The position numbers were made by a program, and so were the translations under genes. Under the pieces are notes generated by a model. That model was not told where the DNA came from. It made no database searches and saw nothing but the letters and a program-made list of their open reading frames with translations. A DNA stretch of 64,000 nt, taken from the NCBI RefSeq assembly GCF_003634935.1, contig NZ_RBXO01000001.1:3683501-3747500 (forward strand), read 5' to 3'. This document shows positions 2,306 to 51,362 of this stretch, in pieces. The stretch comes from Saccharothrix australiensis. Its GTDB lineage: Bacteria; Actinomycetota; Actinomycetes; Mycobacteriales; Pseudonocardiaceae. How positions within the stretch are numbered: the stretch's first letter is position 1; each line of letters opens with the position of its first letter.

Positions 2306-2317
2306 GTCGGTAGTCCT

Positions 2318-2351
2318 CTCTCGGTGTGGTTCAGCTCTCGGTGTGGTTCAG
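2318..2351. repeat. 17-bp perfect tandem duplication at a stop codon
   Basis: The unit CTCTCGGTGTGGTTCAG occurs twice head to tail (2318-2334, 2335-2351). The second copy contains the stop codon of the minus-strand gene at 2348-2614, and the first lies in the leader of the gene starting at 2305. Confidence 0.85.
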
Positions 2352-2614
2352 CGCCGGCAGAACAAGCTCGCGGAGGCCGCGTGCACGCCACCTCCGACCG
2401 ACCTGACGTCGGTCGCGCGGACGTGGCACAGGTCGGCCGACCAGCCGGCCGAACGGGCGACCGCGTAGGCCATCCGGACCGCGCCGTCCACCGCCTGGGA
2501 CGGCGAGGTGCCGAGCCCGCTGCCGGTGAACGTGCTCACCTCAGCTGACGCCGGCGCGGCCAGTGCGGTCACCGCCCCCATCGCGAGGAGGGTCGCGCAC
2601 AGGAATTTCCGCAT
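2348..2614 (-). CDS. small secreted protein, paralogue of its neighbour
   Basis: 88 aa from ATG at 2614 (MRKFLCATLLAMG), chosen over a longer frame because GGGAGAGGA precedes it and it begins a proper signal peptide cleaving after APASA. The mature part starts with EVSTFTGSGLGTSPSQA and contains two cysteines (DLCHVR and ASLFCRR). The TFTGSG-SP-A pattern matches VFTGS-SPREA in the protein at 2015-2305, supporting paralogy. Function unknown. The promoter region, facing the XRE gene, holds a 15-bp site repeated in front of the regulator, so control by that regulator is likely. Confidence 0.72.
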   Translation of the reverse strand: MRKFLCATLLAMGAVTALAAPASAEVSTFTGSGLGTSPSQAVDGAVRMAYAVARSAGWSADLCHVRATDVRSVGGGVHAASASLFCRR

Positions 2615-2664
2615 CGTTCGTCCTCTCCCGGCCGTCAGCCGAGACCGGCCGACACCCGCGTGCT

Positions 2665-2761
2665 CGTTCATCTCAGCTAACATCGCACCGGACCGTAGAT
2701 CGACGTGCGCGGCGTGTCAATCCCAGGTGAATGAGAATCAGCTGTACGTTCATCTCAGCTA
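2665..2761. promoter_or_regulatory. repeated 15-bp site in divergent promoter region
   Basis: CGTTCATCTCAGCTA occurs identically at 2665-2679 and 2747-2761, in the divergent region between the secreted protein (start 2614) and the XRE regulator (start 2773). A weaker relative (CTCACCTCAGCTGA) lies near 2535-2548. The second copy ends 12 nt before the regulator's ATG. These are probably operators for the XRE protein; inference from position and identity. Confidence 0.55.
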
Positions 2762-2772
2762 GTGGAGCGAGG

Positions 2773-3195
2773 ATGTCCGAGGAACGAGTGACCACGCTCG
2801 CCGACCGGATCGACCGCCTGTTCCAGGTGGTGCGCCGGCCCAACGGCGAACAGCACAGCCACGAGGAGGTGGCCCGCGCGTGCCGGGAGAGCACCGGCGA
2901 GTCGTTCTCGGCCGCCTACCTGTGGCAGCTCCGGACCGGGCGCAGGGACAACCCGACCAAGCGCCACCTGGAGGCGTTGGCGGCGTTCTTCCAGGTGCCT
3001 GCCGCGTACTTCTTCGACGACGAGCAGGGCCGGGTCATCGCCGAGGAACTGGAGCTGCTGGCCGCGCTGCGCAAGAGCGCGGTGCGCGACCTGGCGCTGC
3101 GGGCGGTGACGCTGTCCGAGGAGGGGCTCGGCACCGTCACCGACATCGTGGAGGCCATCGGTCGCCGTGAAGCGATGCGCAAGCGGGGTGACTAG
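2773..3195 (+). CDS. XRE-family DNA-binding regulator
   Basis: 140 aa from ATG at 2773 (MSEERVTTLADRIDRLF); the in-frame ATG at 2731 would put the operator-like repeat inside the gene and is rejected. Residues about 25-75 form an XRE/lambda-repressor-type helix-turn-helix (HEEVARACRES, SAAYLWQLRTGRRDNPTKRHLEALAAFFQVPAAYFFDD). The C-terminal helical part probably dimerises. The domain layout recalls actinobacterial EspR-type regulators. It is the first gene of a three-gene operon with an ImmA-like peptidase and a membrane protein; in such pairs the peptidase often cleaves or inactivates the XRE repressor. Likely autoregulated through the 2665/2747 sites. Confidence 0.85.
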   Translation: MSEERVTTLADRIDRLFQVVRRPNGEQHSHEEVARACRESTGESFSAAYLWQLRTGRRDNPTKRHLEALAAFFQVPAAYFFDDEQGRVIAEELELLAALRKSAVRDLALRAVTLSEEGLGTVTDIVEAIGRREAMRKRGD

Positions 3196-3682
3196 CTTGT
3201 TCGGCAGGGGGAGCGCGCTCTGGCGCCGGTGCGAGCGGATCGCGTCCGGGGTGGACTTACCGGACCCGTTCGACGAGGCCGGGTTCCTCGCCGGGCTCGC
3301 GGAGCGCCGGGGCAGGCCGATCGAGCTGGTGGCGCTCGCCGCCTGGTCCGGCGCGCAGTGCGGCCTGGTCGTGGCCACCGACCGGGCGGACTACGTGTTC
3401 GTCACGGCCGACACGAGCCCGCTGCACCAGCGGCACATCGTGCTGCACGAGGCCGGGCACCTGCTCTGCGGGCACACCGGGGGCGGTGCGCTGCCCGACG
3501 CCGTGGCCGCCTCGCTCACCCCGAACCTGTCGGTCGAGCTGGTGCGGCGGGTGCTCGGCCGCACGACCTACGACCGCGGCCAGGAGCGGGAGGCCGAGCT
3601 GGTCGCGTCGCTGATCATGCGCCGGGTCGACGCGGGCGCGGACGCGCCGCCGGACCGGCTCCGGTCGGCGTTCGGGTCGTGA
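3188..3682 (+). CDS. ImmA/IrrE-type metallopeptidase
   Basis: About 164 aa with the zinc-peptidase signature HEAGHLLCGH near residue 90 (HExxH plus a following His), as in ImmA/IrrE proteins that cleave partner XRE repressors. The C-terminal helix QEREAELVASLIMRR matches the family's conserved E-xx-A-xx-[FL]A segment, which supplies the third metal ligand. The start is uncertain: GTG 3188 overlaps the XRE stop by 8 nt and is preferred; ATG 3167 and TTG 3197 are in frame. It is translationally coupled on both sides, because its TGA shares bases with the next gene's GTG. Expected role: cytoplasmic partner of the XRE protein upstream. Confidence 0.85.
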   Translation: MTSLFGRGSALWRRCERIASGVDLPDPFDEAGFLAGLAERRGRPIELVALAAWSGAQCGLVVATDRADYVFVTADTSPLHQRHIVLHEAGHLLCGHTGGGALPDAVAASLTPNLSVELVRRVLGRTTYDRGQEREAELVASLIMRRVDAGADAPPDRLRSAFGS

Positions 3683-4794
3683 TCAGCTGCCTGGCCGCCG
3701 CGCTGCTGGTGCTGGTCGGCGCGGTGCACCGGGTCACCTCGCGCGGCACCGGCCGTCGGCACCTGACGGCGTTCTTCCTCAGCATGGCCGCGGCGCTGCT
3801 GATCTCGGCCGCGCCGGTGGTCCGGCTGGTCGGCGACGAACTGGTGTGCCGCTTCGCCACCAACCTGCTCCAGTTGGCGGCGGTGCGGTCGCTGGTCCGG
3901 CTGGCCCGCGGCACCCGCGACCCCGAACCGCGCACGGCGCGGTGGCCGCTGGTGGCGTGCTGGCTGGTGCTGTCCCTGTGCTGCCTGGACTTCGCGCCGC
4001 ACCGGGCCGAGGTCGCCACCGACGCGTTCCGGTGGCGGCCCAGCGTCGTGGCCTACCAGGTCGTGCTCACCGCGTACCCGGTCGGCTGCCTGGTGGTGTT
4101 CATGCGCACGCTCGCCGCGAGCGCCGCCGACCGGCCGGCCGGGACGTTCCGCACCGGTCTCCGCGTCATCGTCGCGGCGGCGGCGGCCACGATCGGGTGG
4201 GGCGTGTTCTCCGGGCTGCCGTCGCTGTGGCTGGCGGTCACCGACCTCGCCGCGGCCGACTTCCTGCCGCACGCCAGGGTCTGCGGCCTCGTCGCGGTGG
4301 TGCTGTGGGTGGTGGGCGCGGCGCTGACCACGTGGGAGGGCGCGGCCAGGCTCGTGCGGACCCGGCGCGACATCCGGGCGGTGACCCCGCTGTGGCGTGC
4401 GCTGGTCGCGGCCCAGCCGCAGATCGCGCTGCCCGCGCGGCACGACTGGGCCTTCACCCGGTACCGCAGGCTGATCGAGATCCGCGACGGGCTGCTGGCC
4501 CTGCGCGCCCACGTGCCGCCGCACCTCGCGGACTGGCTGACGAGCCCGGTCGACGCGCCCACCCGCGCCGCGGCCGAGGTGGCCGCGGCCCTGGTCATGC
4601 GCGACGCCGGGCGGACCTGGCCCCGGCGGCCGACCGCCGCCGCCACCACGCCGCCCAGCGTGGACGCCGAAGCCGACTGGCTGGCGGCGGTGTCGTCGGC
4701 GTTCCGGCGCTCGCCGGTGGTGCGGGAGGTGCGGCGCCGGGCCCGGCTGGACGCGGAGCGCGGTCACCTCGCCGGCGAGCCGCCGCCGTCCTGA
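3679..4794 (+). CDS. MAB_1171c-like integral membrane protein
   Basis: 371 aa from GTG at 3679, overlapping the peptidase stop (GTGA). The N-terminal 220 residues contain about six or seven hydrophobic helices (LAAALLVLVGAVHRV, FFLSMAAALLISAAPVV, WLVLSLCCLDFA, VVLTAYPVGCLVVFM, VIVAAAAATIGWGVF, LVAVVLWVVGAAL). The soluble C-terminal half contains the family hallmark RYRRLIEIRDGLLALR. Membrane proteins of this type commonly follow XRE and ImmA genes in mycobacteria, Streptomyces and Pseudonocardiaceae; their biochemical role is unknown. It may sense a signal for the XRE/peptidase pair, which is inference from context. Confidence 0.8.
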   Translation: MISCLAAALLVLVGAVHRVTSRGTGRRHLTAFFLSMAAALLISAAPVVRLVGDELVCRFATNLLQLAAVRSLVRLARGTRDPEPRTARWPLVACWLVLSLCCLDFAPHRAEVATDAFRWRPSVVAYQVVLTAYPVGCLVVFMRTLAASAADRPAGTFRTGLRVIVAAAAATIGWGVFSGLPSLWLAVTDLAAADFLPHARVCGLVAVVLWVVGAALTTWEGAARLVRTRRDIRAVTPLWRALVAAQPQIALPARHDWAFTRYRRLIEIRDGLLALRAHVPPHLADWLTSPVDAPTRAAAEVAAALVMRDAGRTWPRRPTAAATTPPSVDAEADWLAAVSSAFRRSPVVREVRRRARLDAERGHLAGEPPPS

Positions 4795-4959
4795 CGCGGT
4801 GGCGCATCGGTCCCGCGCGGTGGCAGGCGGGCCGGGAGAGCCCTCGGCGGCGCGACCGGCCGCGCCTCCGGTGGTGTCGCCCGGCCGCACCTCCCGCGGT
4901 GTGACCGGGGACACCGCGCGACGGCGCAGCGCCGGTCGACCCCCGGCCTCATACAGTGC

Positions 4960-5592
4960 ATGACGCAAGCCCCACTGCGACCGGCGGAGGCGTTGGCCCT
5001 GGGCGACACCTCCGGGAGCGGCCCACCCGAAGCGGCTGACGCGGAACTCTGGCTCCGGATCGCCGACGACGGGCCGGACGCCCACGCGGCCTTCACCGAG
5101 CTGTTCCAGCGCCACGCCGAGGCGGTCTGGAACTACGCCTACCGGTTGACGGCGTCCTGGAGCCAGGCCGACGACCTGCTGTCCACGACGTTCCTCAACG
5201 CCTGGCGCACCCGCGGCCGGGCCGTGCTCGCGCGGGACTCGGCGCGTCCCTGGCTGTTCACCGTCACCGCGCGCCTCGCCCGCGACCAGCGCCGCGCCGG
5301 CGCACGCCTCGCGGCCGTGGTGCAGCGGCTCTCCCGCGCGGCACCGGGTCACGACCACGCCGACGCCGTGGCGGACGGCGATCTCGCCGAGCGCCGGCTG
5401 CGCCGCGTGCTGGAGGCCGTCGACCACCTGCCGCGCGCCGAGCGGGAAGTCGTCCGGCTGTGCCTGCTGGGCGAGGTCTCCACCGGCGACGCGGCCCGGC
5501 TGCTCGGCATCGCCGAGGCCAGCGTCCGCTCCCGGACGTCCCGCGCCCGCGCCCGGTTGCGCGCGCTGATCGGAGAGGACCCCGATGCCTGA
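4960..5592 (+). CDS. ECF-type RNA polymerase sigma factor
   Basis: 210 aa. Sigma region 2 lies at about residues 45-110 (AFTELFQRHAEAVWNYAYRLT, then SQADDLLSTTFLNAWR). Region 4 lies at about 150-205 (LPRAEREVVRLCLLGEVSTGDAARLLGIAEASVRSRTSRARARL), with a helix-turn-helix. It lacks regions 1 and 3, as ECF factors do. The following gene overlaps it by 8 nt and encodes a single-pass membrane protein, the usual position of an anti-sigma factor or signal receptor. The target promoters are not evident in the window. Confidence 0.88.
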   Translation: MTQAPLRPAEALALGDTSGSGPPEAADAELWLRIADDGPDAHAAFTELFQRHAEAVWNYAYRLTASWSQADDLLSTTFLNAWRTRGRAVLARDSARPWLFTVTARLARDQRRAGARLAAVVQRLSRAAPGHDHADAVADGDLAERRLRRVLEAVDHLPRAEREVVRLCLLGEVSTGDAARLLGIAEASVRSRTSRARARLRALIGEDPDA

Positions 5593-7813: not shown

Positions 7814-8755
7814 TCAACGGCCCGGCTGGGCGATCCCGGCACCACGCGGACGCGCCTCCGCCTCGCCGGCGCTGCGGTCCGGTTGCCCCCGGTCCCACCA
7901 GGCGGTGTCCTGCGGCACCTCGCGAGCGAGCAGTTCGAGCGCGTGGTGGGAGGGTGATCCGGCCGGGGCGGTGAAGACGATCAGGGTCTGCTCGGGTGAG
8001 CCGGTGACGTCGAGCGACTGCTGCGTCAGCGTCACCGGCCCGACCAGCGGGTGCCGCAGCTCGTAGGCGGCGGCGTCGCAGGCGCGGATGCGGTGGTCGG
8101 CCCAGATCGCGGCGAACTCGGGGCTCCGCACGGACAGCTCGCCGATCAGCGCGGCCAGCGGCGCGTCGTCCGGGTGGCGGCCGACCGCGAGGCGCAGGTG
8201 GGCGACCAGGGCGCGGGCCTTGCGCGGCCAGTCCGCGTACAGCTCGCGGACGTGCGGGTCGAGGAAGACCAGCCGGGCCGTGTTGGGCCGGTCCGCGGCG
8301 CGGTCCGGGCTCGTCGGGTCGAGGTGGCCCGCGAGCAGGGCGTGGCCGAGCGGGTTCCACGCGAGGACGTCGGTGCGCCTGCCCTGCACGAGGGCGGGCA
8401 CCCCGCCCATGAGCCGGAGCAGTTCGCGGGTGGCCGCGGTGACCTTCTCCGGTCTGGGGCGGGTCGCCCGGCGGGGCTTCTCCTCGGCGAGGCGGCGGAG
8501 GTGGTCGCGCTCGTTCGGGTCGAGGCGCAGCGCGGTGGCGATGGCGTCCAGCACGGCGGGCGACGCGCCGCGCGACTGCCCCTGCTCCAGGCGCGTGTAG
8601 TAGGACGCGCTGACGCCCGCGAGCAGGGCCAGTTCCTCGCGCCGCAGCCCCGGCACCCGGCGGCGCGGGCCCCGCGCGGCCAGCCCGACGTCCGCCGGCC
8701 GCACCTGCGCCCGGCGCGCTCGGAGGAATTCGCCGAGCCGTCCTGGACCACCCAT
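7814..8755 (-). CDS. HTH regulator with MmyB-type ligand-binding domain
   Basis: 313 aa, starting at MGGPGRLGEFLRARR. Residues about 5-85 form an XRE-like helix-turn-helix (RRVPGLRREELALLAGVSASYYTRLEQGQ, the usual signature). Residues about 105-275 match the MmyB ligand-binding domain, a PAS-like fold (VLAWNPLGHALLAG, HVRELYADWPRKARALVAHLR, IWADHRIR, HPLVGPVTL, QTLIVFTAPAGSPSHHALELLA). These regulators usually control an adjacent divergent oxidoreductase or exporter. Here the divergent neighbour is the MFS gene at 8861, and a CCCTG-C-CAGGG palindrome lies between them. The C-terminal tail after ALELLA is proline/arginine-rich and may be disordered. Confidence 0.88.
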   Translation of the reverse strand: MGGPGRLGEFLRARRAQVRPADVGLAARGPRRRVPGLRREELALLAGVSASYYTRLEQGQSRGASPAVLDAIATALRLDPNERDHLRRLAEEKPRRATRPRPEKVTAATRELLRLMGGVPALVQGRRTDVLAWNPLGHALLAGHLDPTSPDRAADRPNTARLVFLDPHVRELYADWPRKARALVAHLRLAVGRHPDDAPLAALIGELSVRSPEFAAIWADHRIRACDAAAYELRHPLVGPVTLTQQSLDVTGSPEQTLIVFTAPAGSPSHHALELLAREVPQDTAWWDRGQPDRSAGEAEARPRGAGIAQPGR

Positions 8756-8792
8756 GCCGTCGAGTATGTGGGGACGCCGGGTGGCCCAGCCA

Positions 8793-8808
8793 CACCCTGC
8801 CAGGGGTG
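8793..8808. promoter_or_regulatory. candidate operator of the HTH-MmyB regulator
   Basis: CACCCTGCCAGGGGTG contains the perfect interrupted palindrome CCCTG-C-CAGGG, centred in the 105-bp divergent region between the regulator and the MFS exporter. This is the expected position for a shared operator. Confidence 0.5.
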
Positions 8809-8860
8809 GGATGACGCCGGGCTGGTGGCGGTGCCGGACCGGTCGGCAGGGTCGGGAGCC

Positions 8861-10264
8861 ATGCGACGGGTGGTGCGGGAGCGGGGCAGCCGGAAGTGGT
8901 GGGCGCTGACCGGGGTCGGCATCGTCAGCTTCCTCGGGTGCGTGGACCTGACGATCGTCAGCACGGCCGCCCCGGAGATCGGGAGGGACCTGCGGACGAC
9001 GGTGGCGCAGACGCAGTTGGTCGTCAACGTCTTCGTGGTCGCGCTGTCGGCGTTCATGGTGGCGGCGGGCCGGCTGGCCGACGTCTTCGGCCGCCGCAAG
9101 GTGTTCCAGCTCGGCACCGCGCTGTTCGGGCTGGCGTCGCTCGGCGCGGGCTGCGCGACGGACTTCCGGCTCCTGGTGCTCTTCCGGTTCCTCCAGGGCG
9201 CGGCGTGCGCGGTGCTCTACACGAGTTCCAGCACGATCGTGTCCGACGCGTTCCCGGCGGCCCGGCGGGGGAAGGCGATCGGCACGCTGTTCGCGGTCAA
9301 CGGTTTCGGCCTGGCGGTGGGTCCGGTGCTCGGCGGGGTGCTGGTCGGGGCGCTGGACTGGCACTGGATCTTCCTCGTCAACGTGCCGGCGGTCCTGTCG
9401 GCCCTGGGCATCTGCGCGTTCAGCGTGACCGAGTCGCGCGGTGCCGCCGTCCGGCCGGACTGGCCGGGGGTGGCGCTGCTCGCCGTCGGCGTCTCGGGGC
9501 TGGTGTTCGGCCTGACGTTCAACGACACCTTCGGCTGGGGCTCCTGGCAGGTGTGCGGCGCGCTGGCCGTCGGGGCGGTGGCGCTGGTGGCGTTCGTGCT
9601 CGTCGACCGGGCGGCGGAGCACCCGCTGATCCCGTTCGGGCTGTTCGGCGACCGGCTGTTCCTCGGCGCGGTGGTCGCGGAGTCCGCGCTCGGCTTCTTC
9701 TACACCACCGCGCTGTTCCTCATGCCGCTGTACCTGGGTGTCGTGCGCCACCACGACGACACGGCGGTCGGCCTGCTGATGCTGCCCGCCACGGCCACCG
9801 TCGCGGTGCTCTCACCGGTGGTGGGCCGCGTGGTGGACCGGGTCGGCCCGCTTCCGGTGCTGTCGTTCGGGTTCGCCGCGTTCGCGGTGTCGGCGTTCTG
9901 CCAGTCCCGGTTGGACGCAGGCAGCGGGATCGGCGTGGTCGTCCTCGCGTTCGTCCTCATGGGAGTGGGGTGGGCCACCGTGCTCGGGCCGGCGGCGGTC
10001 GCGGCGCTGTCCTCGGCTCCGCCCCGGCTGTCCGGGCTGGCGGTCGGCGCGAGTTGGACGTTCCACAACTTCGGCGGCGCGGTCGGGCTCGCGGCGGGGA
10101 TGTCGGTGTTCCGGGCGTTCGGCGGCGAGACGCGGTTCGAGGCCGGTCACCACGCGGCGATGCTGCTGCTCGTCGGCAGCTCGGTGGCCGCGCTCGCCGT
10201 GATCGTCGCTGTGGGACGCGGCGCGTTCGGGCGCTGGAACGGGGTGCGGCCAGTCGGTGGCTGA
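8861..10264 (+). CDS. MFS drug-type exporter (DHA2 family, 14-TM)
   Basis: 467 aa from ATG 8861. About 14 hydrophobic helices, beginning WALTGVGIVSFLGCVDLTIVSTAAPEIGRDL. Motif A is seen in loop 2-3 (GRLADVFGRRKVF, about residues 70-82) and the motif C region in helix 5 (LAVGPVLGGVLVGALDWHWIFLVNVP). The LTIV motif D1 in helix 1 (VDLTIVSTAAP) is typical of DHA2 proton antiporters. Expected to sit in the cytoplasmic membrane and export an organic compound; the substrate is unknown. Divergent from the MmyB-type regulator, which probably controls it. No lasso-type ABC exporter exists nearby, but there is no sequence evidence that this MFS protein serves the lasso locus. Confidence 0.85.
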   Translation: MRRVVRERGSRKWWALTGVGIVSFLGCVDLTIVSTAAPEIGRDLRTTVAQTQLVVNVFVVALSAFMVAAGRLADVFGRRKVFQLGTALFGLASLGAGCATDFRLLVLFRFLQGAACAVLYTSSSTIVSDAFPAARRGKAIGTLFAVNGFGLAVGPVLGGVLVGALDWHWIFLVNVPAVLSALGICAFSVTESRGAAVRPDWPGVALLAVGVSGLVFGLTFNDTFGWGSWQVCGALAVGAVALVAFVLVDRAAEHPLIPFGLFGDRLFLGAVVAESALGFFYTTALFLMPLYLGVVRHHDDTAVGLLMLPATATVAVLSPVVGRVVDRVGPLPVLSFGFAAFAVSAFCQSRLDAGSGIGVVVLAFVLMGVGWATVLGPAAVAALSSAPPRLSGLAVGASWTFHNFGGAVGLAAGMSVFRAFGGETRFEAGHHAAMLLLVGSSVAALAVIVAVGRGAFGRWNGVRPVGG

Positions 10265-10437
10265 GGACGTCCGGGCGGCGGGAGTGGTTGCGGGGAGCCG
10301 AATCCAACGGTCCGCACCCGGTGCGTCGGACCGCGGACGCGACCCCGGCATCACCTGCTCGCGGCGGTACGGGCACCCTTGTCACCGGCCCTGTCGTCCC
10401 CACGCGGGTCCGCACGCCCACCACCGAGGACGGACAC

Positions 10438-11304
10438 ATGACGCTGCCCTACGAGCCCGACGACGACCAGGCCGCCGACCGCTACATCAACGCCGCGCTG
10501 CGCGGCCGCGACGCCGAGGCGTGGCGGCTGCTGGCCGCCGACACCCACGTCGAGCAGACCGACCGGGTGATCCGGGCGATGCTCGACCGGATCGCGGTGG
10601 CGCGCGCGCACCGCACGGCCGAGCGCGCGACCGCGCGTGCGCGGGTGTCGGCAGGCGAGATCACCGAGGCCGAGTACCGGCGCGAGGCGGCCGAGGAAGC
10701 CGCACGGGCCACGAAGACCGCGCACTTCGAGACGTTGCTGCGCGAGCACCACCGGCTGATCGCGCAGGCCGCGCGCCGCCTGCGCGGCGACGACGTGCGC
10801 GACGAGCTGGCGGACCTGGTGCTCGCCCTGGGCACCGCCATCGACGCCCACCGGTCGGCCGTGCTCGCCGCCGGCGTCGAGCCCAGCGCGGCCGACCGGG
10901 CGTTGTGGGAGCGGTTGAGCGCGCTGGAGGTGCCCGGCACGCCCGGTGGCGCGGGGCGCACGTCGGTGGAGGAGCTGGTCGGGCGCCACGCGACGCGGCA
11001 GGACGACTTCGGGCGCGTGCTGGCCGGGATCATCCTGGACGTGGCGGGTGATGCGGCGTCGGTGTCGCGTGCCGCGTTGCTGCCCGCGTGGAAGAGGGCG
11101 GTCGCGCCGGTCCTGGCGTCCGGGGAGAGGGCGGAGTTCGCGGCCAAGGGCAAGGGCTCGTTGGTGACGGAGAAGCTGCGCAAGGCGTTGGGGCACTTGG
11201 AGCGGAAGGGACTGGTCAGGCGTTCGGAGTCGCCCGACGGGCAGCGACTGGACGTACTCGACCGGCCGGGTCTGGTGGAGCTGGCCGGCGGGCGGGAGCC
11301 GTGA
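10438..11304 (+). CDS. unrecognised cytoplasmic helical protein
   Basis: 288 aa from ATG 10438 with GAGGAC upstream. I do not recognise it. It is mostly charged helices. Residues about 45-125 look coiled-coil-like (RIAVARAHRTAERATARARVSAGEITEAEYRREAAEEAARAT). The C-terminal 60 residues (KGKGSLVTEKLRKALGHLERKGLVRRSESPDGQRLDVLDRPGL) have the look of a winged helix: a helix, a recognition helix, then a beta wing. It could be a DNA-binding protein, but this is pattern-based. It stands alone between the MFS gene and the lasso locus and ends at a strong bidirectional terminator. Confidence 0.65.
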   Translation: MTLPYEPDDDQAADRYINAALRGRDAEAWRLLAADTHVEQTDRVIRAMLDRIAVARAHRTAERATARARVSAGEITEAEYRREAAEEAARATKTAHFETLLREHHRLIAQAARRLRGDDVRDELADLVLALGTAIDAHRSAVLAAGVEPSAADRALWERLSALEVPGTPGGAGRTSVEELVGRHATRQDDFGRVLAGIILDVAGDAASVSRAALLPAWKRAVAPVLASGERAEFAAKGKGSLVTEKLRKALGHLERKGLVRRSESPDGQRLDVLDRPGLVELAGGREP

Positions 11305-11314
11305 CGGGTGCGCC

Positions 11315-11357
11315 GCACCGGCCTCGGCCCGTCCGGTGACGCCGCCGAGGCCGGTGC
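11315..11357. terminator. bidirectional terminator hairpin
   Basis: A perfect 14-bp stem (GCACCGGCCTCGGC / GCCGAGGCCGGTGC, arms 11315-11328 and 11344-11357) lies between the convergent genes ending at 11304 (plus) and 11410 (minus, lasso B). Confidence 0.75.
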
Positions 11358-11409
11358 CGACCGGTGGAGCGCGCCGCGGCGCTGTGCGCGCCCGTGGTGC
11401 GGTGCGCGG

Positions 11410-12114
11410 TCACGTCCTGGTCAGGAAGCCGGCGTCGAGCAGTCGGTCGGTCATCGCCAGGATGTCGCGGTGTGCCAGGGCCGGGTCGATGTCGTAGTGG
11501 GCGGCGTAGTGCTCGGCGGCGTCGTCGGGGGTCTGTCCGGAGAGGAGCCTGCGCAGGGTGTCGACCCCGGTGTGGTTGAGCTGCCAGTAGTCGCCGGTGC
11601 GCTGGTTGAGCAGGACGGCGCCGTCGTCGGTCTCCGCGCTGAGCGCGTCGTGGTGCAGCCGCAGTATCCCGGCGGTGCGCTCGCGGCAGGTGCTGCCCGG
11701 CGTCGGCGGGCCGACGGTGATCAGCGGGACGTAGTAGCCGTCGGGCAGCGGTTCGTCGATCATCCGGCCTTCGGCCTCCACCCAGGCGTGCGCGCCGAAC
11801 GGCGTCGTGCGCGCACCCAGGCGCCAGGTGGGCCACGTGCCCCGCGCACGGCACAGCAACGCCGTCGCGATCGACCGTTGCAGGCATCCGTTGACGGCGC
11901 AGCGGAGGCTGCTCGCGACGACCGCCTCGCGGGCGGCGGACGCCTGCGCGGCCGTCGCCGCGCGGGCACCGCGACTGGCCAGCGCCAGCACCGCGCGCAA
12001 CACCTTCGGCGGCAGGCGGGTGAGCGGCGCGGCGACCGCGACGGCCGCCAGGGCCGACAGCCGGGTGCGCGGGGCGAGCCGCACCCGCTCGGGTGGGGCG
12101 TAGGGCGTGCTCAT
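11410..12114 (-). CDS. lasso peptide B protein, B2 protease fused to PqqD-like B1 (reversed order)
   Basis: 234 aa. The N-terminal half is the transglutaminase-like cysteine protease (B2) that removes the leader peptide: Cys77 in NGCLQRSIATALLCRARG, His109 in FGAHAWVE, and Asp120 in GRMIDEP make the expected triad. The C-terminal half (about 150-234: DGAVLLNQRTGDYWQLNHTG, then a helix pair ending DRLLDAGFL) is a PqqD-like leader-recognition domain (B1/RRE). Actinobacterial lasso loci usually have separate B1 and B2 genes, and proteobacterial fusions put B1 first; here B2 comes first. It starts 16 nt after the cyclase stop with GGGAGG upstream, so A-C-B forms one minus-strand unit. The protein should bind the YxxP leader element and cut before the core glycine. 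Confidence 0.88.
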   Translation of the reverse strand: MSTPYAPPERVRLAPRTRLSALAAVAVAAPLTRLPPKVLRAVLALASRGARAATAAQASAAREAVVASSLRCAVNGCLQRSIATALLCRARGTWPTWRLGARTTPFGAHAWVEAEGRMIDEPLPDGYYVPLITVGPPTPGSTCRERTAGILRLHHDALSAETDDGAVLLNQRTGDYWQLNHTGVDTLRRLLSGQTPDDAAEHYAAHYDIDPALAHRDILAMTDRLLDAGFLTRT

Positions 12115-12130
12115 CTCGGACCTCCCTCGG

Positions 12131-14011
12131 TCAACCCACCGGGAACCGGGTGTCGGTGGGCGGTGGGCCGGTCGGCACCGGGTCCGCGGGCCGGACGGCG
12201 CGGGTTTCGCGCACCCACATCTCGCAGCCGAGCGTCATCTCCAGGTTCGGCGACACGTCGTCGAGCGCGGTGCCCTGTTGGGCGTACAGGCCGGCGCGCA
12301 ACGCGTCGACGTCGATCAGCCCGCGTGCGGCGAGCGCCGAGTCCGCGAACAGGTCGAGCAGGTCGGGGATGTGGCGGTGCTGGGCGCGGAGGACCAGTTC
12401 CTCGTAGTCGCCCTTGGTGCGCCGGTCGAGGACGGCGGCCGGCACGCGGCCGCGCATCGCCTCCGCCAGCAGGGGCTTGTAGCGCCAGGGGTCGTTCCGC
12501 TCGTGCGGTCGGACCGCCAGCGCGGCCTCCACGACCCGGTCGTCCAGGAAGGGCAGGTCGAGGCGCAGCCCCTCGGCGGCGTGGTCGCGTACCACCTGCC
12601 GCAGCACCGGTCCGGCGGAACGCAGGCAGCTCAGCGTTTCGTGCCGACCGCGGTCGCCCGCCGCCGGCACGGCTTCGGCGGCGACCTCGCGCAGCACCCG
12701 GCGCGCCGTGCCCACCGCGTCGGCGGTGGCCCACGGCGAACGGCTCAACGGGTCGGCCCAGCCCAGGCGCGGGTTGTCCGGCGGCGGTGGCGGGCCGGTG
12801 AGGGAGTCGGCACTGTCGCGCCACCACGAGCGCACGTCGCGGTGGTCCAGGAGCGCGCGCAGGGTGGGCAGCAGCGGCCACCGGCCCAGCGCGAGGTGCA
12901 CGCGCAGGTGCTTCAGCGCCGTCAGCGGCCGACGCCGGATCAGGGTGTGCAGGTAGGCGGCGCCGCCGGTGAACAACTCGTCGGCGCCGTGCCCGGCCAG
13001 GTGCAGGGTGGCGCCGTGCCCGACGAGCCACCGCACCTGGAACCGGGTGCCGTTCAGACCCCGGACGAAGGCGTGCGGCGCTTCGGTGTCGGGCAGCGAG
13101 TACGGCGGCGCGAACACCGGCGGACCGTCGTCGTCCAGCAGTTCGAGGTGCTCGGCCCGGTCCAGCGCTCGCGCCGCTTCCGCCGCGTAGCGCGGGTCGT
13201 CGTTGGTCGCGCCGCCCTCGGTCCGGCGGAAGGTGAGCAGGTCGGGCGTGTGCTCGGCGGCGAGGAAGCACAGCGAGGTGGAGTCCATCCCGCCGGAGAG
13301 GTCGGCGGACAGCCGCCCGTGCGCCGGCCTCCGCCACGCCACGGCCTCCCGCAACGCCTCGCGCACCCGTCGGGCGCCGACGCGCAGCGGGAGGACCGGG
13401 TCCGGCGGCGTCCACCAGCGGACGGTGCCCGCGCGGTCGGGCGCGAGGTCGAGGTAGCGGTCCGGCGGGACCCGGTGCACCCCGCGCCACCAAGCGCGCT
13501 CGCTCAGCGGCGGCACCAGCGGCCCGCACGCGACGTGCACCGCGAGCAGGTCCTCGTCCGGCTCGGCACCGATCATCGCGGCCAGCGCGTCCGCCCGGTC
13601 GCTCGCGACGGTCACGCCGTCCAGGCGGGCGGTGAACACCGGCCGCGAACCCGTGGCGGTGCCCTGGAAGCGGACGCGCCCGGCGACCGAGGCCACCAGG
13701 TGCGCGCTGCCCGGCAACGTCCGGGCCAAGGCGTCCAGGTCGGCCGGTCGACCCACCCGGCGCGCCGCCTCGGCCAGGCGGGCGGAGTCGACCGGGCAGC
13801 GCCCGAACGCGGCGATCCGCACGTCGCCCGCACCGCCCACCACCAGCTCGTCCGCCGCCCACCGCCCGACCAGCCACGGCCGCCCGGACGGGTGCGCGAC
13901 CACCTGGGGCGCGCGGTGCGGCACCCGTCGGCTCGCGCGCTCCCCGCCCGGTGAGTCCGGCAGGACGACGAGGCTGTCGGTCAGCCCGTACATGAACGAC
14001 CTCGCTGTCAT
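12131..14011 (-). CDS. lasso cyclase (asparagine synthetase-like C protein)
   Basis: 626 aa. The C-terminal two thirds carry the ATP-pyrophosphatase loop LSADLSGGMDSTSLCFLA (SGGxDS near residue 240) and the AGHGADELFTG motif of asparagine synthetase B/lasso cyclases. The N-terminal glutaminase-like domain lacks the catalytic Cys2, as in lasso cyclases and beta-lactam synthetases. It adenylates the side chain of Asp9 of the precursor core and closes the ring with Gly1. The start ATG 14011 (MTARSFMYGL) is preferred over 13993 because GGGAG lies 8-9 nt upstream; that site is buried in the intergenic hairpin at 14014-14048. It lies between the precursor gene and the B gene. Confidence 0.92.
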   Translation of the reverse strand: MTARSFMYGLTDSLVVLPDSPGGERASRRVPHRAPQVVAHPSGRPWLVGRWAADELVVGGAGDVRIAAFGRCPVDSARLAEAARRVGRPADLDALARTLPGSAHLVASVAGRVRFQGTATGSRPVFTARLDGVTVASDRADALAAMIGAEPDEDLLAVHVACGPLVPPLSERAWWRGVHRVPPDRYLDLAPDRAGTVRWWTPPDPVLPLRVGARRVREALREAVAWRRPAHGRLSADLSGGMDSTSLCFLAAEHTPDLLTFRRTEGGATNDDPRYAAEAARALDRAEHLELLDDDGPPVFAPPYSLPDTEAPHAFVRGLNGTRFQVRWLVGHGATLHLAGHGADELFTGGAAYLHTLIRRRPLTALKHLRVHLALGRWPLLPTLRALLDHRDVRSWWRDSADSLTGPPPPPDNPRLGWADPLSRSPWATADAVGTARRVLREVAAEAVPAAGDRGRHETLSCLRSAGPVLRQVVRDHAAEGLRLDLPFLDDRVVEAALAVRPHERNDPWRYKPLLAEAMRGRVPAAVLDRRTKGDYEELVLRAQHRHIPDLLDLFADSALAARGLIDVDALRAGLYAQQGTALDDVSPNLEMTLGCEMWVRETRAVRPADPVPTGPPPTDTRFPVG

Positions 14012-14013
14012 CG

Positions 14014-14048
14014 ACCGCACTCCCGGCGGGATGCGCCGGGAGTGCGGT
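14014..14048 (-). promoter_or_regulatory. RBS-masking hairpin between precursor and cyclase genes
   Basis: A perfect 15-bp stem (ACCGCACTCCCGGCG / CGCCGGGAGTGCGGT) with a 5-nt loop sits between the lasso precursor stop (14109) and the cyclase ATG (14011). On the minus strand its 3' arm contains the GGGAG ribosome binding site of the cyclase and ends 2 nt before the ATG. It can act as a partial terminator or translational brake, giving more precursor than enzyme. Confidence 0.8.
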
Positions 14049-14108
14049 GTCGTCACACGTATGACCCGTCGTGCGACGGGCAAGGGACTTGGGGGCGGCC
14101 GTTGCTCG

Positions 14109-14237
14109 TCAACGTGGCCGGTAACCCTCGCGGCCGTTGTCCCGCTTACCCTTCTTGTACGCGCCGAAGGTGTCGCGGGCGAACTGGCCCGCCTTGGCCG
14201 CCACGGGCGGCACGTAGCGCTCAGGTCGTGTTTCCAC
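14109..14237 (-). CDS. lasso peptide precursor (A peptide)
   Basis: 42 aa starting at GTG 14237, with GGGAG six to seven bases upstream; a longer 69-aa frame from 14318 lacks such a site. The leader of 24 residues carries the recognition motif YVPPVAAKAGQFARDT (Tyr8, Pro11, Gly17, Phe19; the YxxPxLxxxGxFxxxT form) and the conserved Thr at position -2 of the core. The predicted core is GAYKKGKRDNGREGYRPR (18 residues). Gly1 and Asp9 are spaced for a nine-residue macrolactam ring, there are no cysteines, so it would be a class II lasso peptide. The core has seven Arg/Lys against two acids, one consumed by the ring. I do not recognise this core. Encoded just upstream of the cyclase and B genes. 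Confidence 0.9.
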   Translation of the reverse strand: METRPERYVPPVAAKAGQFARDTFGAYKKGKRDNGREGYRPR

Positions 14238-14258
14238 GCTGGTCTCCCTGCTGGATCG

Positions 14259-14277
14259 GATGGTCCGGCCGACCATC
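14259..14277 (-). promoter_or_regulatory. palindrome in the leader of the lasso precursor gene
   Basis: GATGGTC-CGGCC-GACCATC: 7-bp perfect arms with a 5-nt spacer, 22 nt upstream of the precursor GTG. It could be an operator or a leader hairpin; no regulator gene is linked to the locus except the TetR gene at 14549, whose own operator is different. Confidence 0.45.
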
Positions 14278-14510
14278 GCCTGCGCCTCCACGATGGGGCG
14301 GACCCCGGTGCGCGGCAACGCTCCTGCCGACGACCACCCGTCCGACTACCCGACCGGGCGAGCAGCGCCTCGGACGAACCCGTTCCGTGTGAGGTCGCCC
14401 CGGGACCGGCGAACCGGGCGAGCCGCGCCGCCTCATCGTCCGGTCCGGACGATGTCGCGCCGCCTGTCGGGGCTCGTGCCGGCCGGGACTCGGCGATACC
14501 GGTGCCCGTG

Positions 14511-14533
14511 GTGTACGGTACGGTTTCGTACAC
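14511..14533. promoter_or_regulatory. TetR-type operator
   Basis: A 23-bp near-palindrome with perfect outer arms GTGTACG and CGTACAC and a partly symmetric centre lies 15 nt before the TetR start. Its position over the promoter fits autoregulation of the TetR-monooxygenase pair. Confidence 0.65.
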
Positions 14534-14548
14534 TACGGAGCGAGGTCG

Positions 14549-15109
14549 ATGATGAGGGGCGAGGCGCGCGAGCGGGCCATCCTCGACGCCACCACGGACC
14601 TGGTGGGCGAGGTCGGCTACCAGGCGCTGACCGTCGACGCGGTGGCCGCGCGGGCACGCGCCAGCAAGGCCACGATCTACCGCCGCTGGCGCAACAAGGC
14701 GGAGCTGGTGAAGGCGGCGCTGGACGCCTACGACGCCGGCTTCAACCTGGTCATCCCCGACACCGGTGAGCTGCGCGGCGACCTCGTCGCGGTGCTGGCA
14801 GCCCTGCGGGACAAGGCGACCGACCGCTACCTCGCCCTGCTCAACGCGCTGATCAGCGCCGCCAGGTACGACCCGGCGCTGGCCGCCGCGCTGCACGAGC
14901 ACCAGGAGGACGACGAGCTGTCGCCCTTCACGGCCTGCCTGCGGCGCGCGGTCGCCCGCGGCGAGGCGCCCGCCGACGTCGACACCACGCTGGTGCACGA
15001 CGTCGCCGAGGCGCTCATCCTGCGGCAGCTCACCATCGACCGGCCGTTCGACGACGCGTTCATCGAGCGGGTCGTCGACCGCGTGCTGCTGCCGCTGATC
15101 AACTCCTGA
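14549..15109 (+). CDS. TetR/AcrR-family repressor
   Basis: 186 aa, with ATGATG start behind GGAGCGAGG. The N-terminal helix-turn-helix spans about residues 8-55 (RERAILDATTDLVGEVGYQALTVDAVAARARASKATIYRRWRNKAELV), followed by a helical ligand domain with LLNALISAARYDPALAAALHEH and DVAEALILRQLTIDRPFDDAFIERVVDRVL, typical of the TetR C-terminal class that regulates exporters or oxygenases. It is followed after 21 nt by an FAD monooxygenase gene, the likely target together with itself through the palindrome at 14511-14533. The inducer is unknown. Confidence 0.9.
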   Translation: MMRGEARERAILDATTDLVGEVGYQALTVDAVAARARASKATIYRRWRNKAELVKAALDAYDAGFNLVIPDTGELRGDLVAVLAALRDKATDRYLALLNALISAARYDPALAAALHEHQEDDELSPFTACLRRAVARGEAPADVDTTLVHDVAEALILRQLTIDRPFDDAFIERVVDRVLLPLINS

Positions 15110-15130
15110 ACGGATGGGGGAACACCGGGG

Positions 15131-16636
15131 ATGCCCGACCACGTGCCGGTCCTGATCGCGGGCGCGGGGCCCAGCGGCCTGACGCTCGCCGTCGAACTCG
15201 CCCGCCGCGGCGTCGACTGCCGGGTCGTCGACAAGGCGGCGGAGCCGTTCCCCGGCTCGCGCGCCAAGGGCCTGCAACCACGCACTCTGGAGGTGCTGGA
15301 AGACCTCGGGGTGCTCGACGCCGTGCTCGACGGCGGTGCGCCGTTCCCGGCCTTCCGGATGTACTCGGGGACGAAGATCCTGTGGGAGCGCGGACTGGAC
15401 GAGGTGCTCGGCACCGAGCTGCCGAGGCGCTCGCCCGACGTGCCGTACCCGCTGCCGTGGCTGATCCCGCAGTGGCGGACGGACGCGATCCTGCGCGGTC
15501 GGTTCGAGGAGCTGGGCGGCCGGGTGGAGCGGTCGACCGAGCTCGTCGGGTTCGACCAGGACGACGACGGCGTCGTCGCGACCCTGCGCCACGCCGGGCG
15601 GGACGAGCGGGTGCGCGCCGACTACCTCGTCGGCGCGGACGGCGGGCGCAGCTTCGTGCGCAAGCACGCCGGCATCCCGTTCGCGGGCACGACCCACGAC
15701 ACCGAGCGGACGCTGATCGGCGACGTCCGCGCGGACGGGGTGGAGGGGAACTTCTGCCACATGTTCACCGGCGGCGACCTGGCGAAGCGGTTCTCGCTGT
15801 GGAACCTGCCCGGCTCCGACCACTTCCAGTTCGTCGCGGCGGTCGACCCCGGCGACGAGCCCGAGCCGGGCCTGGCCGCGGTGCGGCGGATGCTGGACGA
15901 GCGGTCCGGCCGCACCGACATCCGGCTGCACGACCTGCGGTGGATCTCGCTGTACCGGATCAACGTCCGCCTGGCCGAGCGGTTCCGGGTCGGCCGGGTG
16001 CTCCTGGCGGGCGACGCCGCGCACGTGCACTCGTCGGCAGGCGGCCAGGGGCTGAACACCAGCGTCCAGGACGCGTACAACCTGGGCTGGAAGCTCGCCG
16101 CCGTGCTGGGCGGCGCGCCGGACGCCCTGCTGGACAGCTACCACGAGGAGCGGTTCCCGGTGGCGGCGGAGGTGCTCGACGTCAGCACCGCCCTGCACCG
16201 CGGCGGGTTCCGGGCGACGACCGCGCCCGCCGGGTCCGCGCCCTCGATCCACCAGCTCGACATCACCTACCGCGGCGGCCCGCTCGCCGTCGACGACCGC
16301 GTCGAGCGGGGACGCCTGCACGCCGGTGACCGCGCGCCCGACGCCCCGCTGCGCACCCCGCTCGGCGGCCGGACGCGCCTGTTCGAGGTCTTCCGGGGGC
16401 CGCGCTGGACGTCGCTGACCTTCGGGGCCGCGCCGGTCGCCGACCTCGGGCCCGGCGTGCACGCCTGCTCGGTGGCCGCGCGCGGTGGCGACCTCCTCGA
16501 CACCGACGGGCACGCGGCCCGCGCCTACGACGTGCCCGGGGGAACCCACGTCCTCGTCCGGCCCGACGGCCACGTCGGGCTGATCACCCCCGACGCCGAA
16601 CGGGTTCGCGGGTACCTGCGCGGGCTGGGGCTCTGA
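15131..16636 (+). CDS. FAD-dependent aromatic monooxygenase (PheA/TfdB type)
   Basis: 501 aa. Class A flavoprotein monooxygenase: the N-terminal GAGPSGL (GxGxxG, about residues 10-16) binds the FAD adenine; the DG motif is in DYLVGADGGRSFVRKHAGI (about 165-185); the GD motif is in RVLLAGDAAHVHSSAGGQGLNTSVQDAYNLGWKLA (about 290-325). A C-terminal thioredoxin-like remnant (about 400-500) is usual for phenol-hydroxylase-like members. It would use NAD(P)H and oxygen to hydroxylate an aromatic compound or antibiotic in the cytoplasm. Cotranscribed with the TetR repressor, so likely induced by its substrate; such pairs often act in detoxification or resistance. A tailoring role for the nearby lasso peptide is not supported. 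Confidence 0.88.
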   Translation: MPDHVPVLIAGAGPSGLTLAVELARRGVDCRVVDKAAEPFPGSRAKGLQPRTLEVLEDLGVLDAVLDGGAPFPAFRMYSGTKILWERGLDEVLGTELPRRSPDVPYPLPWLIPQWRTDAILRGRFEELGGRVERSTELVGFDQDDDGVVATLRHAGRDERVRADYLVGADGGRSFVRKHAGIPFAGTTHDTERTLIGDVRADGVEGNFCHMFTGGDLAKRFSLWNLPGSDHFQFVAAVDPGDEPEPGLAAVRRMLDERSGRTDIRLHDLRWISLYRINVRLAERFRVGRVLLAGDAAHVHSSAGGQGLNTSVQDAYNLGWKLAAVLGGAPDALLDSYHEERFPVAAEVLDVSTALHRGGFRATTAPAGSAPSIHQLDITYRGGPLAVDDRVERGRLHAGDRAPDAPLRTPLGGRTRLFEVFRGPRWTSLTFGAAPVADLGPGVHACSVAARGGDLLDTDGHAARAYDVPGGTHVLVRPDGHVGLITPDAERVRGYLRGLGL

Positions 16637-49088: not shown

Positions 49089-51362
49089 GTGTCGCTGCTG
49101 GAGATCGACCGCTTGTCCGTCGAGGTGCTCGCGGACGACGTGGCCACCGGGCTCGTCCACGAGTTGTCGCTCAGCCTGGACGCCGGCCGGACCCTGTGCG
49201 TGGTCGGCGAGTCCGGCAGCGGCAAGACGGTCACGGCGCTGTCGGTGATCCGCCTGTTGGAATTCGTCGCGCCGGTGCGCACCACCGGTGAGATCCGGCT
49301 GGACGGCGTCGACCTCACCGCGCTGGACCCGGTGCGCATGCGGGCGGTGCGCGGGCGGCGGATCGGGATGGTGTTCCAGGAGGCGCTGGACGCGCTCAAC
49401 CCGGTGCAGCGGGTCGGCGCGCAGCTCGCCGAGGCGCACCGGCCGCCGGCGCACCGACCGGGGACGCGTCGGCGCTGGTCGGGGTCGCTCCGATCGGCGG
49501 TGCTCGGGCGGGGGACACCGGGGCGGGCGGCGTCGGAGCGGGAGGCGCTGGGGGAGGCGCTCGGACCGGCGACGCTCGGACCGGCGACGCTCGGACCGGC
49601 CGCGCTCGGGCGGGTGGCGCTCGGTCCGGTGGCGCACCGCCGGGCCGCGCGTGCCGCGGCCCGCGCCCGTGCCGCGGCCCTGCTGGCCGAGGTCGGCTTC
49701 CCCGATCCCGACCGCGTCGCGCGGCTCTACCCGCACCAGCTCTCCGGCGGGATGCGGCAGCGCGTGCTGATCGCGATGGCGCTGATGGCGGACCCCGACC
49801 TGCTGCTGGCCGACGAGCCGACGACCGCGCTGGACGTGACCACGCAGGCGGAGGTGCTGCGCCTGTTCCGCGCCCTCCAGCGGGAGCGCCGGATGGCGTG
49901 CGTGTTCATCACCCACGACATGGCGGTCGCGGCGGAGGTCGCCGACCGGATCGCCGTGCTGTACGCGGGCCGCCTGGTGGAGGTGGGCCCGGCCGCCGAC
50001 GTGCTCGGCACGCCGCGCCACCGCTACACCCGCGCCCTGGTGGCGTGCGTGCCGGCGGTGGGTGCGCGCCGCGTCCCGGATTCCGGCGCCGGCCGCCTGC
50101 CGTCCATCCCCGGCTCCGCGCCCGCGGCGGGGGAGGCGGTCACCGGCTGCCGGTTCGCCCCGAGGTGCGCGCACCGCGATGACCGCTGCACGACCGAGGA
50201 GCCGCCGTTGGCCGCCGTCGGCCCGGTGGAGGTGGCGTGCCTGCACCCCGGCGAGGGACCGGTCGAGCTGCCCACACCGGTCGCGGCGATCCCACCCGCC
50301 GTGCCGCCCAAGAACGCCGCGCCGCCCAAGAACGCCGCGCCGCCCAAGAACGCCGCGCCGCCCAAGAACGCCGCGCCGCCCAAGAACGCCGTGCCGCCCT
50401 CGCCCGCCGCGCCGCCCCCGCCCGCCGCGCCGCCCTCGAACGCCTCGGCGACTCCACCGCGCACGGCGACTGCACCGGTGACGCCGCTCTCGTCGGTCGC
50501 GCCCGCCCTGGTCGCCGAGCGCGGCACCGCGCCGCTGCTGGAGGTCGAGGGCGTGCGGCGCGTGTTCGTCACGCGCGGCGGGAGGGCCGGCGGCCTGCTC
50601 GCGCCGCGCCGCCGCGAGCGGACCGCCGCCCTCGACGGCGTGAGCCTCACCATCCGGCCGGGCGAGTTCTTCGGCCTGGTCGGCGAGTCCGGCAGCGGCA
50701 AGACCACGCTGGGCCACCTCGTCGCGGCCCTGGACCACCCCACGTCGGGCACGATCACCGTGCGCGGCCAACGGCACACCCCGCGCGGGCTGGCCGGTGA
50801 CGCCCGCGCGTTCCGCCGCACCGTGCAGCTGATCTTCCAGGACCCGCACGGCTCCCTGGACCCGCGGCACACCGTCGGGCGGATCGTCGCCGAGCCGCTG
50901 CGCGAGCTGACCGACCTGCGCGGCGCGGACCTGCGCCGTCGGGTGGCGCGCCTGCTGGACGAGGTGGGCCTGCCCGCGTCGACCGCCGACCGGTTGCCCG
51001 CGCGGCTCTCCGGCGGCCAGCGGCAGCGGGTCGCGATCGCCCGCGCCCTCGCGCCGGGGCCGGCGCTGGTCGTGGCCGACGAGCCGACCTCCGCGCTGGA
51101 CGCGTCGGTGCGGGGGCAGGTGGTGAACCTGCTGCTCGACCTGCGCCGCGAGCACGGCCTGGCCTTCCTGTTCATCACCCACGACCTGAGCCTGGTGCTG
51201 TCCGTCGCGGACCGGGTCGGCGTGCTGAAGGACGGCAGGCTGGTCGAGGTCGCGCCACCCGCGGAGATCGCGGACCGGCCGCGCCACGGGTACACCCGTG
51301 CCCTGCTGGCCGCGAACCCCGGCCGCCGCCCGGTCGCCCGCGCGGCGGGTCCACCCGAGTGA
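49089..51362 (+). CDS. fused double ATPase of the oligopeptide ABC transporter (DppD-DppF)
   Basis: 757 aa from GTG 49089 (GGGAGGG 9 nt upstream; the ATG at 49080 abuts that site). Two complete ATPase domains. The first has Walker A GESGSGKT (about 40), signature LSGGMRQR (about 220) and Walker B LLLADEP, then the Opp/Dpp C-terminal CRFAPRC element. The second has GESGSGKTT (about 535), LSGGQRQR and LVVADEPTSALD. Between them is a low-complexity linker with five PPKNAA units. Domain 1 also has an extra insertion of about 55 residues rich in LGPAT repeats just before its signature region. In most bacteria DppD and DppF are separate. Divergent from the binding protein and permeases; AraC gene follows. 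Confidence 0.92.
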   Translation: MSLLEIDRLSVEVLADDVATGLVHELSLSLDAGRTLCVVGESGSGKTVTALSVIRLLEFVAPVRTTGEIRLDGVDLTALDPVRMRAVRGRRIGMVFQEALDALNPVQRVGAQLAEAHRPPAHRPGTRRRWSGSLRSAVLGRGTPGRAASEREALGEALGPATLGPATLGPAALGRVALGPVAHRRAARAAARARAAALLAEVGFPDPDRVARLYPHQLSGGMRQRVLIAMALMADPDLLLADEPTTALDVTTQAEVLRLFRALQRERRMACVFITHDMAVAAEVADRIAVLYAGRLVEVGPAADVLGTPRHRYTRALVACVPAVGARRVPDSGAGRLPSIPGSAPAAGEAVTGCRFAPRCAHRDDRCTTEEPPLAAVGPVEVACLHPGEGPVELPTPVAAIPPAVPPKNAAPPKNAAPPKNAAPPKNAAPPKNAVPPSPAAPPPPAAPPSNASATPPRTATAPVTPLSSVAPALVAERGTAPLLEVEGVRRVFVTRGGRAGGLLAPRRRERTAALDGVSLTIRPGEFFGLVGESGSGKTTLGHLVAALDHPTSGTITVRGQRHTPRGLAGDARAFRRTVQLIFQDPHGSLDPRHTVGRIVAEPLRELTDLRGADLRRRVARLLDEVGLPASTADRLPARLSGGQRQRVAIARALAPGPALVVADEPTSALDASVRGQVVNLLLDLRREHGLAFLFITHDLSLVLSVADRVGVLKDGRLVEVAPPAEIADRPRHGYTRALLAANPGRRPVARAAGPPE
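50304..50393 (+). repeat. 18-bp coding tandem repeat (PPKNAA linker)
   Basis: Five in-frame copies of CCGCCCAAGAACGCCGCG (50304, 50322, 50340, 50358, 50376; the last ends GTG), encoding (PPKNAA)n. It joins the two ATPase domains and is likely prone to copy-number change. Confidence 0.9.

Follow-up and report, generated by a model that had tools for sequence, protein, structure and literature searches.

The window, by which we mean the whole stretch of 64,000 nt of Saccharothrix australiensis DNA analysed here, contains a very short minus-strand gene that a sequence-only reading had taken for the precursor of a new class II lasso peptide. This raises the question of whether a working lasso pathway surrounds the gene, and how such a pathway relates to those already described. 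We find that the locus is probably a working A-C-B class II lasso pathway and belongs to a small, mostly cationic subfamily. What is new here is a variant of class II lasso biosynthesis, in which a polycationic core goes with a B protein of one chain and reversed order.

The precursor gene and its product

Translation of 14237-14109 on the minus strand confirmed the 42-codon gene proposed to start at GTG 14237. The product of this lasso precursor gene A (14109..14237, (-), GTG start, 42 aa, stop included), for which homologues are known, is VETRPERYVPPVAAKAGQFARDTFGAYKKGKRDNGREGYRPR followed by a stop. The GGGAG pointed out upstream is part of a ribosome-binding site, AGGGAG, read from the sequence at 14244..14249 (-), 6 nt ahead of the GTG. 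As had been claimed, the 24 aa leader (YVPPVAAKAGQFARDTF, 14166..14237, (-)) has the pattern YxxPxxxxxGxFxxxT with Thr at -2, and the predicted core (14112..14165, (-)) has Gly1 and Asp9, the candidate ring residues, and no Cys; Tyr15 is the candidate plug. Split at the predicted border of leader and core, the product reads VETRPERYVPPVAAKAGQFARDTF and GAYKKGKRDNGREGYRPR. The C (12131-13993) and B (11410-12114) genes do follow directly after A on the same strand.

The locus thus shows what is expected of a class II lasso peptide: a YxxP leader with Thr at -2, an adjoining cyclase and B peptidase/RRE, a residue 1 (Gly1) with an Asp at positions 7-9 (Asp9), and a Cys-free core. Three features go beyond the sequence-only reading, namely that B is an inverted fusion, that the exporter is missing and that the spacer from A to C holds a 15-bp hairpin.

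The cyclase and the spacer between A and C

The lasso cyclase C (12131..13993, (-)) has 620 aa when read from ATG 13993, 115 nt past the stop of A; GTG 14020 and ATG 14011 are alternative in-frame starts. It matches PF00733 at 1.7e-39, and its best NCBIfam model is the albusnodin-type NF033561 with 236.4 bits, under the curated cut-off of 300. When the window was compared with its two closest relatives, dN/dS was 0.36-0.46 for C and 0.28-0.30 for B, and no internal stops were found in either gene of the three; judged by these ratios, purifying selection is acting on B and C. For the precursor dN/dS was 0.76 over 42 codons, which is uninformative at this length. Next to the 64% cyclase of Amycolatopsis anabasis (L076), neither B nor a precursor was found.

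Between A and C lies a perfect 15-bp hairpin (14014..14048, (-)) with no T-run after it, a possible attenuator or RNA stabiliser. It was matched by none of 200 single-base shuffles, and the spacer folds with a z of -3.5; a terminator scan found nothing at the hairpin. At the corresponding position locus L064 carries a 15-bp hairpin too (z -4.3), unrelated to that of the window. The hairpin may serve to give more precursor than enzyme. A strong hairpin comes after A in the window and in both L064 and L110, and another stands between the two precursors of L075. As a clade rule the hairpin was rejected, there being none in L065, L077, L078 and L080, in the space from the second L075 precursor to C, or after either of two orphan precursors described below.

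An inverted, fused B protein

The B gene (11410..12114, (-)) encodes 234 aa in which B2 and B1 are fused in inverted order. The B2 leader-peptidase domain takes up residues 17-134 (11713..12066, (-); NF033537 8.2e-31, PF13471 6.2e-23) and the B1/RRE (PqqD-like) domain residues 155-230 (11425..11652, (-); NF033530 3.8e-24, PF05402 3.9e-13), so B runs peptidase first and RRE last. The C-terminal half also matches the solved TfuB1 chain 6jx3_B at 1.9e-14. In the parts of PMC6784204 consulted, the RRE, when fused, sits N-terminal of the peptidase and actinobacterial clusters encode it separately, and the excerpts from PMC5067487 give the order of actinobacterial clusters as A C B1 B2 D. The window locus has neither this canonical architecture, with a separate B1 ahead of B2 and an adjoining D, nor a fused B of the McjB kind with the RRE at the N-terminus of the peptidase. 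Among the titles listed for rearranged B genes and for lasso peptides together with Saccharothrix, none dealt with such a B arrangement.

The fused B aligns from end to end with those of Saccharothrix obliqua (L063, 78%) and L064 (74%), the hinge being the most variable part. B matches were found in 115 of 297 genomes of the family at E<=1e-5, where among the matches listed those over the whole length were from the window, S. obliqua and G295, and in 55 of 394 genomes across the class at E<=1e-20, where only the window's own genome matched over the whole length. At least 80 named loci were found with the cyclase; among them Nocardia panacis (L075) has a fused B as well, and L078, L080, L110 and L101 have separate adjoining genes, B2 then B1. 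The B genes of Streptomyces celluloflavus are on a second contig, again in the order B2-B1.

A cyclase tree of 90 rows was built by a quick method with SH-aLRT as its only support. Adjacent B genes run B1-B2 in 66 rows and B2-B1 in eight, the window included, and the remaining 16 are without one or both B genes within 1.5 kb. Among the 74 rows with adjacent B1 and B2 the gene order switches once. SH-aLRT support is 99 (starred) for the four fused rows, 94 (unstarred) for the 10-row set holding all B2-B1 rows, and 100 (starred) for the 12-row set that includes the sister. Counted among the 16 are two Actinomadura loci (L146 and L148), far outside the clade, where B2 adjoins the cyclase and some 2.5 kb separate it from the B1 that follows. 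Two sister cyclases of S. obliqua lie 28 kb apart (L066, G023:C33:230001-250000, and L074, G023:C33:204000-214000); one has B2 with no B1 found and the other B1 with no B2 found, as if they were complementary halves, and the L066 cyclase stretch has one stop inside the tblastn match.

Artificial fusions and splits of B stay functional, as described in a part of PMC5067487, so fusion in itself is tolerated. With its single inversion and fusion, B lends itself, as a natural experiment, to the study of how the leader is presented to the peptidase by the RRE.

Relatives of the precursor

A search of 99 related genomes gave a single strong outside match over the whole precursor, in S. obliqua (G023) at E 1.4e-12 and 60% identity, together with weaker precursor matches in the same genome. 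The S. obliqua cores are GIRHRGHKDNGREGYRRRPY (the closest homologue), GTSILGFTDTATWGYKRPKAR and GSKPRGKRDGTTPFRKIKTW; the same-family genome G295 has GTIHLKKDATTIGFKKPH, Nocardia panacis has two, GTIHTQKDATTWGFKKG and GTIHTKKDATTFGFKKG, and the four Streptomyces cores read GT[IV]YTxKDATTxGFKKP[RK]. The motif DNGREGYR is common to the window and S. obliqua, and GT[IV]xxxKDATTxGFKK to Nocardia panacis, the four Streptomyces and one same-family genome.

For a wider search we used a profile from an alignment of five precursors, the window's own among them, in which P5, R7, Y8, P11, A13, G17, T23, G25 (core 1) and D33 (core 9) are invariant. At E<=1e-5 the profile matched one of 394 genomes across the class, the window's own; among 297 family genomes it matched in 4, at six places in all (three of them in S. 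obliqua and one each in the window, G295 and G009), hence it does not fire at random. At the loose limit of 0.05 it matched 56 of the 297 family genomes, and at E<=0.001 it matched 10 of 11 genomes chosen for carrying the cyclase clade or its sister.

Against the window core, the core of the closest relative scored 59 where shuffles had a mean of 20 (p 0.0005). Shuffle p was 0.0005, 0.02 and 0.05 for the three S. obliqua cores and 0.06 to 0.39 for seven GT[IV]xxxKDATT cores, a weak likeness. The window is thus linked to the latter group by leaders, cyclases and B, core likeness alone being weak. All ten relative precursors of the clade keep Gly1 and carry Asp at core position 8 or 9, and together with the leader motif and the adjoining C and B this bears out the proposed class II lasso with a Gly1-Asp9 ring.

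A Gly-Phe/Tyr with the aromatic residue six positions past the ring Asp is found in 10 of 11 clade cores, including the window's Gly14-Tyr15; the exception is the S. obliqua core beginning GSKPRGKRD, with Phe five residues past the ring Asp. The count covers the clade without the sister branch of L070 and L079, whose cores look different. This pattern makes Tyr15 the natural plug candidate. The remark of the sequence-only reading that the tail plug is not obvious can be improved upon, Gly14-Tyr15 offering a candidate.

In the sister branch, L070 (Saccharothrix G009) and L079 (Amycolatopsis dendrobii) have the normal B1-B2 order, and their precursors have Arg/His-rich tails and a predicted residue 1 of Ala, Ser or Arg after TDTR/TVTR. 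S. obliqua also carries four tandem precursors ahead of one cyclase (L067, 6800-8500, G023:C44), with Arg-rich cores such as GYDGPRRDWRRRRPRF and GPRGPRPDFRRRRPRF.

The proposed pathway

We consider it quite likely that the locus is a minimal A-C-B operon making a polycationic class II lasso by the scheme of RRE and leader, peptidase and C, with a B that arose by order reversal and then fusion. The C-terminal RRE of B would bind the leader (YVPP...G), and the N-terminal peptidase of the same chain would cut after Phe(-1), with Thr at -2. C would then activate Asp9 with ATP and join it to Gly1 while the tail threads, Tyr15 (Gly-Tyr, D+6) being the likely plug, and the expected lasso mass is 2089.104, the linear core minus water. 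As to the origin of B, the order of the B1 and B2 genes would have been reversed first and the fusion would have come second.

Nothing on function was gained from the neighbouring genes. Of 25 genus genomes, 2 carry a relative of the TetR neighbour, and the one in S. obliqua is remote from the lasso genes; the 288-aa neighbour (10438-11304) is a genus-core gene present in 24 of the 25. Both were set aside. An FAD monooxygenase gene is also among the neighbours. It is a guess, and one we hold somewhat less than evenly, that the strong positive charge would give the product an antibacterial role on an anionic target, e.g. RNA or the cell envelope. The membranes, DNA or protein partners put forward as targets in the sequence-only reading are likewise guesses.

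Exporter, orphan precursors and maturation in trans

A D-type ABC exporter with membrane and ATPase domains is found near C and B in L064, L075, L078, L080 and L110, and also in the sister loci L070 and L079; within the clade it is kept by G295, Nocardia and three Streptomyces members. A tblastn search with the G295 exporter found none near the window operon, the only match in the window being to an ATPase domain at 50622-51326, and none in S. obliqua L063 or in L065/L101, which leaves three Saccharothrix clade copies without D. At E<=1e-20 the G295 exporter has 25 matches in the S. australiensis genome, and the best of those elsewhere (42%) is that of a second lasso cluster, at 3855641-3857371. 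This cluster (L068, G000:C1:3846000-3860000) has a normal B1-B2 order and a precursor at C1:3852548 with the candidate core GSRGRQRDSRRRQKN, which is very cationic too.

An L063 gene was considered as exporter D and rejected, as it has two ATP-binding domains, no membrane domain and no tblastn match to the G295 exporter. At 2306-5579 of this locus (G023:C47) two neighbouring genes each encode two ABC ATP-binding domains without a membrane domain, one of them with an ABC_tran_Xtn linker; the pair is about 2.6 kb from the fused B of S. obliqua, with two opposite-strand genes between. If these were ABC-F type ribosome protectors, it would bear on a ribosome target.

No precursor was detected beside the cyclase and fused B on contig C47 of S. 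obliqua (L063). The same genome has orphan precursors with the same leader at C33:242213 and C23:602220, and neither has a clade cyclase beside it. At 3.6 kb from the one on C33 there is a different cyclase (40% similar), accompanied by a candidate precursor with another leader. The distance to the nearest contig end is 158 kb for C47:158153, and 242 and 284 kb for the two orphan precursors, so that, misassembly apart, the L063 enzymes and the orphan precursors are hundreds of kb apart. The arrangement suggests that the S. obliqua precursors are processed in trans, with the L101 enzymes of S. obliqua as a possible alternative partner, and it makes this species a test case for lasso maturation in trans. 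A bolder reading, which we hold to be doubtful, is that in Saccharothrix C and the inverted B have been cut loose from the exporter and, in S. obliqua, from the precursor, and that one cyclase/B pair would act in trans on several distant precursors with the same leader. It would thereby make a small set of different cationic lassos, which would either borrow an exporter or have none and would hit a target new for lassos.

With no clade-type exporter beside the three Saccharothrix copies, the product might also stay in the producer and act there, in regulation or nucleic-acid binding, instead of being an antibiotic. We regard this as unlikely: relatives in other genera keep the exporter, and any of the 25 exporter matches in the genome could serve. 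Decay of the cluster, the exporter having been lost and the peptide no longer made or no longer of consequence, would fit the same contrast between the loci with and without D, the L063 enzymes without an adjoining precursor and the rarity of the clade. However, all three genes are intact, purifying selection acts on B and C, and the window and S. obliqua cores have kept DNGREGYR in common, and decay seems to us quite unlikely.

Comparison with published cores

The sequence-only reading did not recognise the core as a described lasso peptide and called for a comparison with catalogues. We scored 57 published cores against it, taken from the table of PMC12427821 with triculamin added from PMC13192320, and ran shuffles for the five best. 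Six rows of the table were left out as duplicates or near-duplicates (Lariatin B, LAR-B, Siamycin I and II, Specialicin and Moomysin), and the printed letter O in Astexin-1 was taken as Q. No convincing similarity emerged. Kinship to triculamin (shuffle p 0.32), lariocidin (0.56), albusnodin (0.76) and caulosegnin I (0.17) was rejected as no better than shuffles, and caulosegnin II, with p 0.02 uncorrected for 57 comparisons, was taken as chance. Six core strings occurred in no paper of the literature searched; PMC12070363, on triculamin-like lassos, and the Nature version on lariocidin may overlap with the present findings. As far as these comparisons reach, then, the core is unlike the described ones.

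In charge the core does have company. By one counting scheme the predicted mature peptide has about +5, lariocidin +6 and triculamin +5, lassomycin being next of the 57 with +3; the other ten clade cores have +2 to +6. According to the preprint PMC11451635, lariocidin belongs to the class II lassos and acts on 16S rRNA, and the first lasso antibiotic that targets the ribosome has recently come from polycationic lassos. The window peptide, likewise short and strongly cationic, could therefore be thought to belong with lariocidin and triculamin and to block the ribosome where they do. This we find improbable, as those peptides have Ser1, PGDG and a ring of 8, whereas the window core has Gly1, a ring of 9 and neither Ser1 nor PGDG, and the shuffles gave no kinship. 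Moreover, no PF00583 acetyltransferase was found inside the window, the nearest being 39 kb from the operon, and no clostripain-type peptidase, the other gene of this comparison, among the neighbours scanned from 8051 to 16636. With a charge comparable to that of ribosome-targeting polycationic lassos on an unrelated core, the lineage allows one to test cleanly whether a charged lasso scaffold suffices for uptake and activity. The least probable alternative, a branched-cyclic, unthreaded product whose tail lacks a strong plug, would agree with bulky residues limited to Tyr3, Tyr15, arginines and lysines, but Gly-Phe/Tyr at D+6 recurs through the clade and Arg can serve as the plug in some known lassos.

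Comparison with known lasso systems

Our preferred reading, the minimal A-C-B operon with a reversed and fused B, can be set against four kinds of known cluster. The A-C-B1-B2-D clusters of the anantin, ulleungdin and RES-701 kind have homologous C, B1 and B2 and the same leader logic, and loci with cores like theirs fall just beyond the 12-row clade, in the nearest large branch; they differ in that the window has B2-B1 fused, no adjoining D, and a hydrophilic cationic core where theirs are aromatic-rich. The proteobacterial McjB likewise holds RRE and peptidase in one chain, but as far as the passages in PMC6784204 and PMC5067487 go its RRE is N-terminal, in contrast to the C-terminal RRE of the window B. 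The albusnodin type provides the best model for C, yet C scores below its cut-off, and the albusnodin core, GQGGGQSEDKRRAYNC, is unlike that of the window.

The fourth kind consists of clusters for which we found no published name, in Nocardia panacis and in Streptomyces RPT161, celluloflavus, pinistramenti and NRRL WC-3742. In Streptomyces RPT161 (L078, 8014-9159) a GNAT acetyltransferase gene stands directly after the exporter and recalls the self-resistance of lariocidin; as a clade feature it was rejected, since tblastn at E<=1e-3 matched that protein neither in the window nor in L063, L064 and the other 79 of the 80 named loci. These five share the cyclase clade and the leader with the window, and all have the order B2-B1 where both B genes could be read. 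Unlike the window, they have cores with 8-residue rings of the GT[IV]xxxKDATTxGFKK type and, in L075, L078, L080 and L110, the exporter, and in the Streptomyces clusters B2 and B1 are separate and the precursor is divergent.
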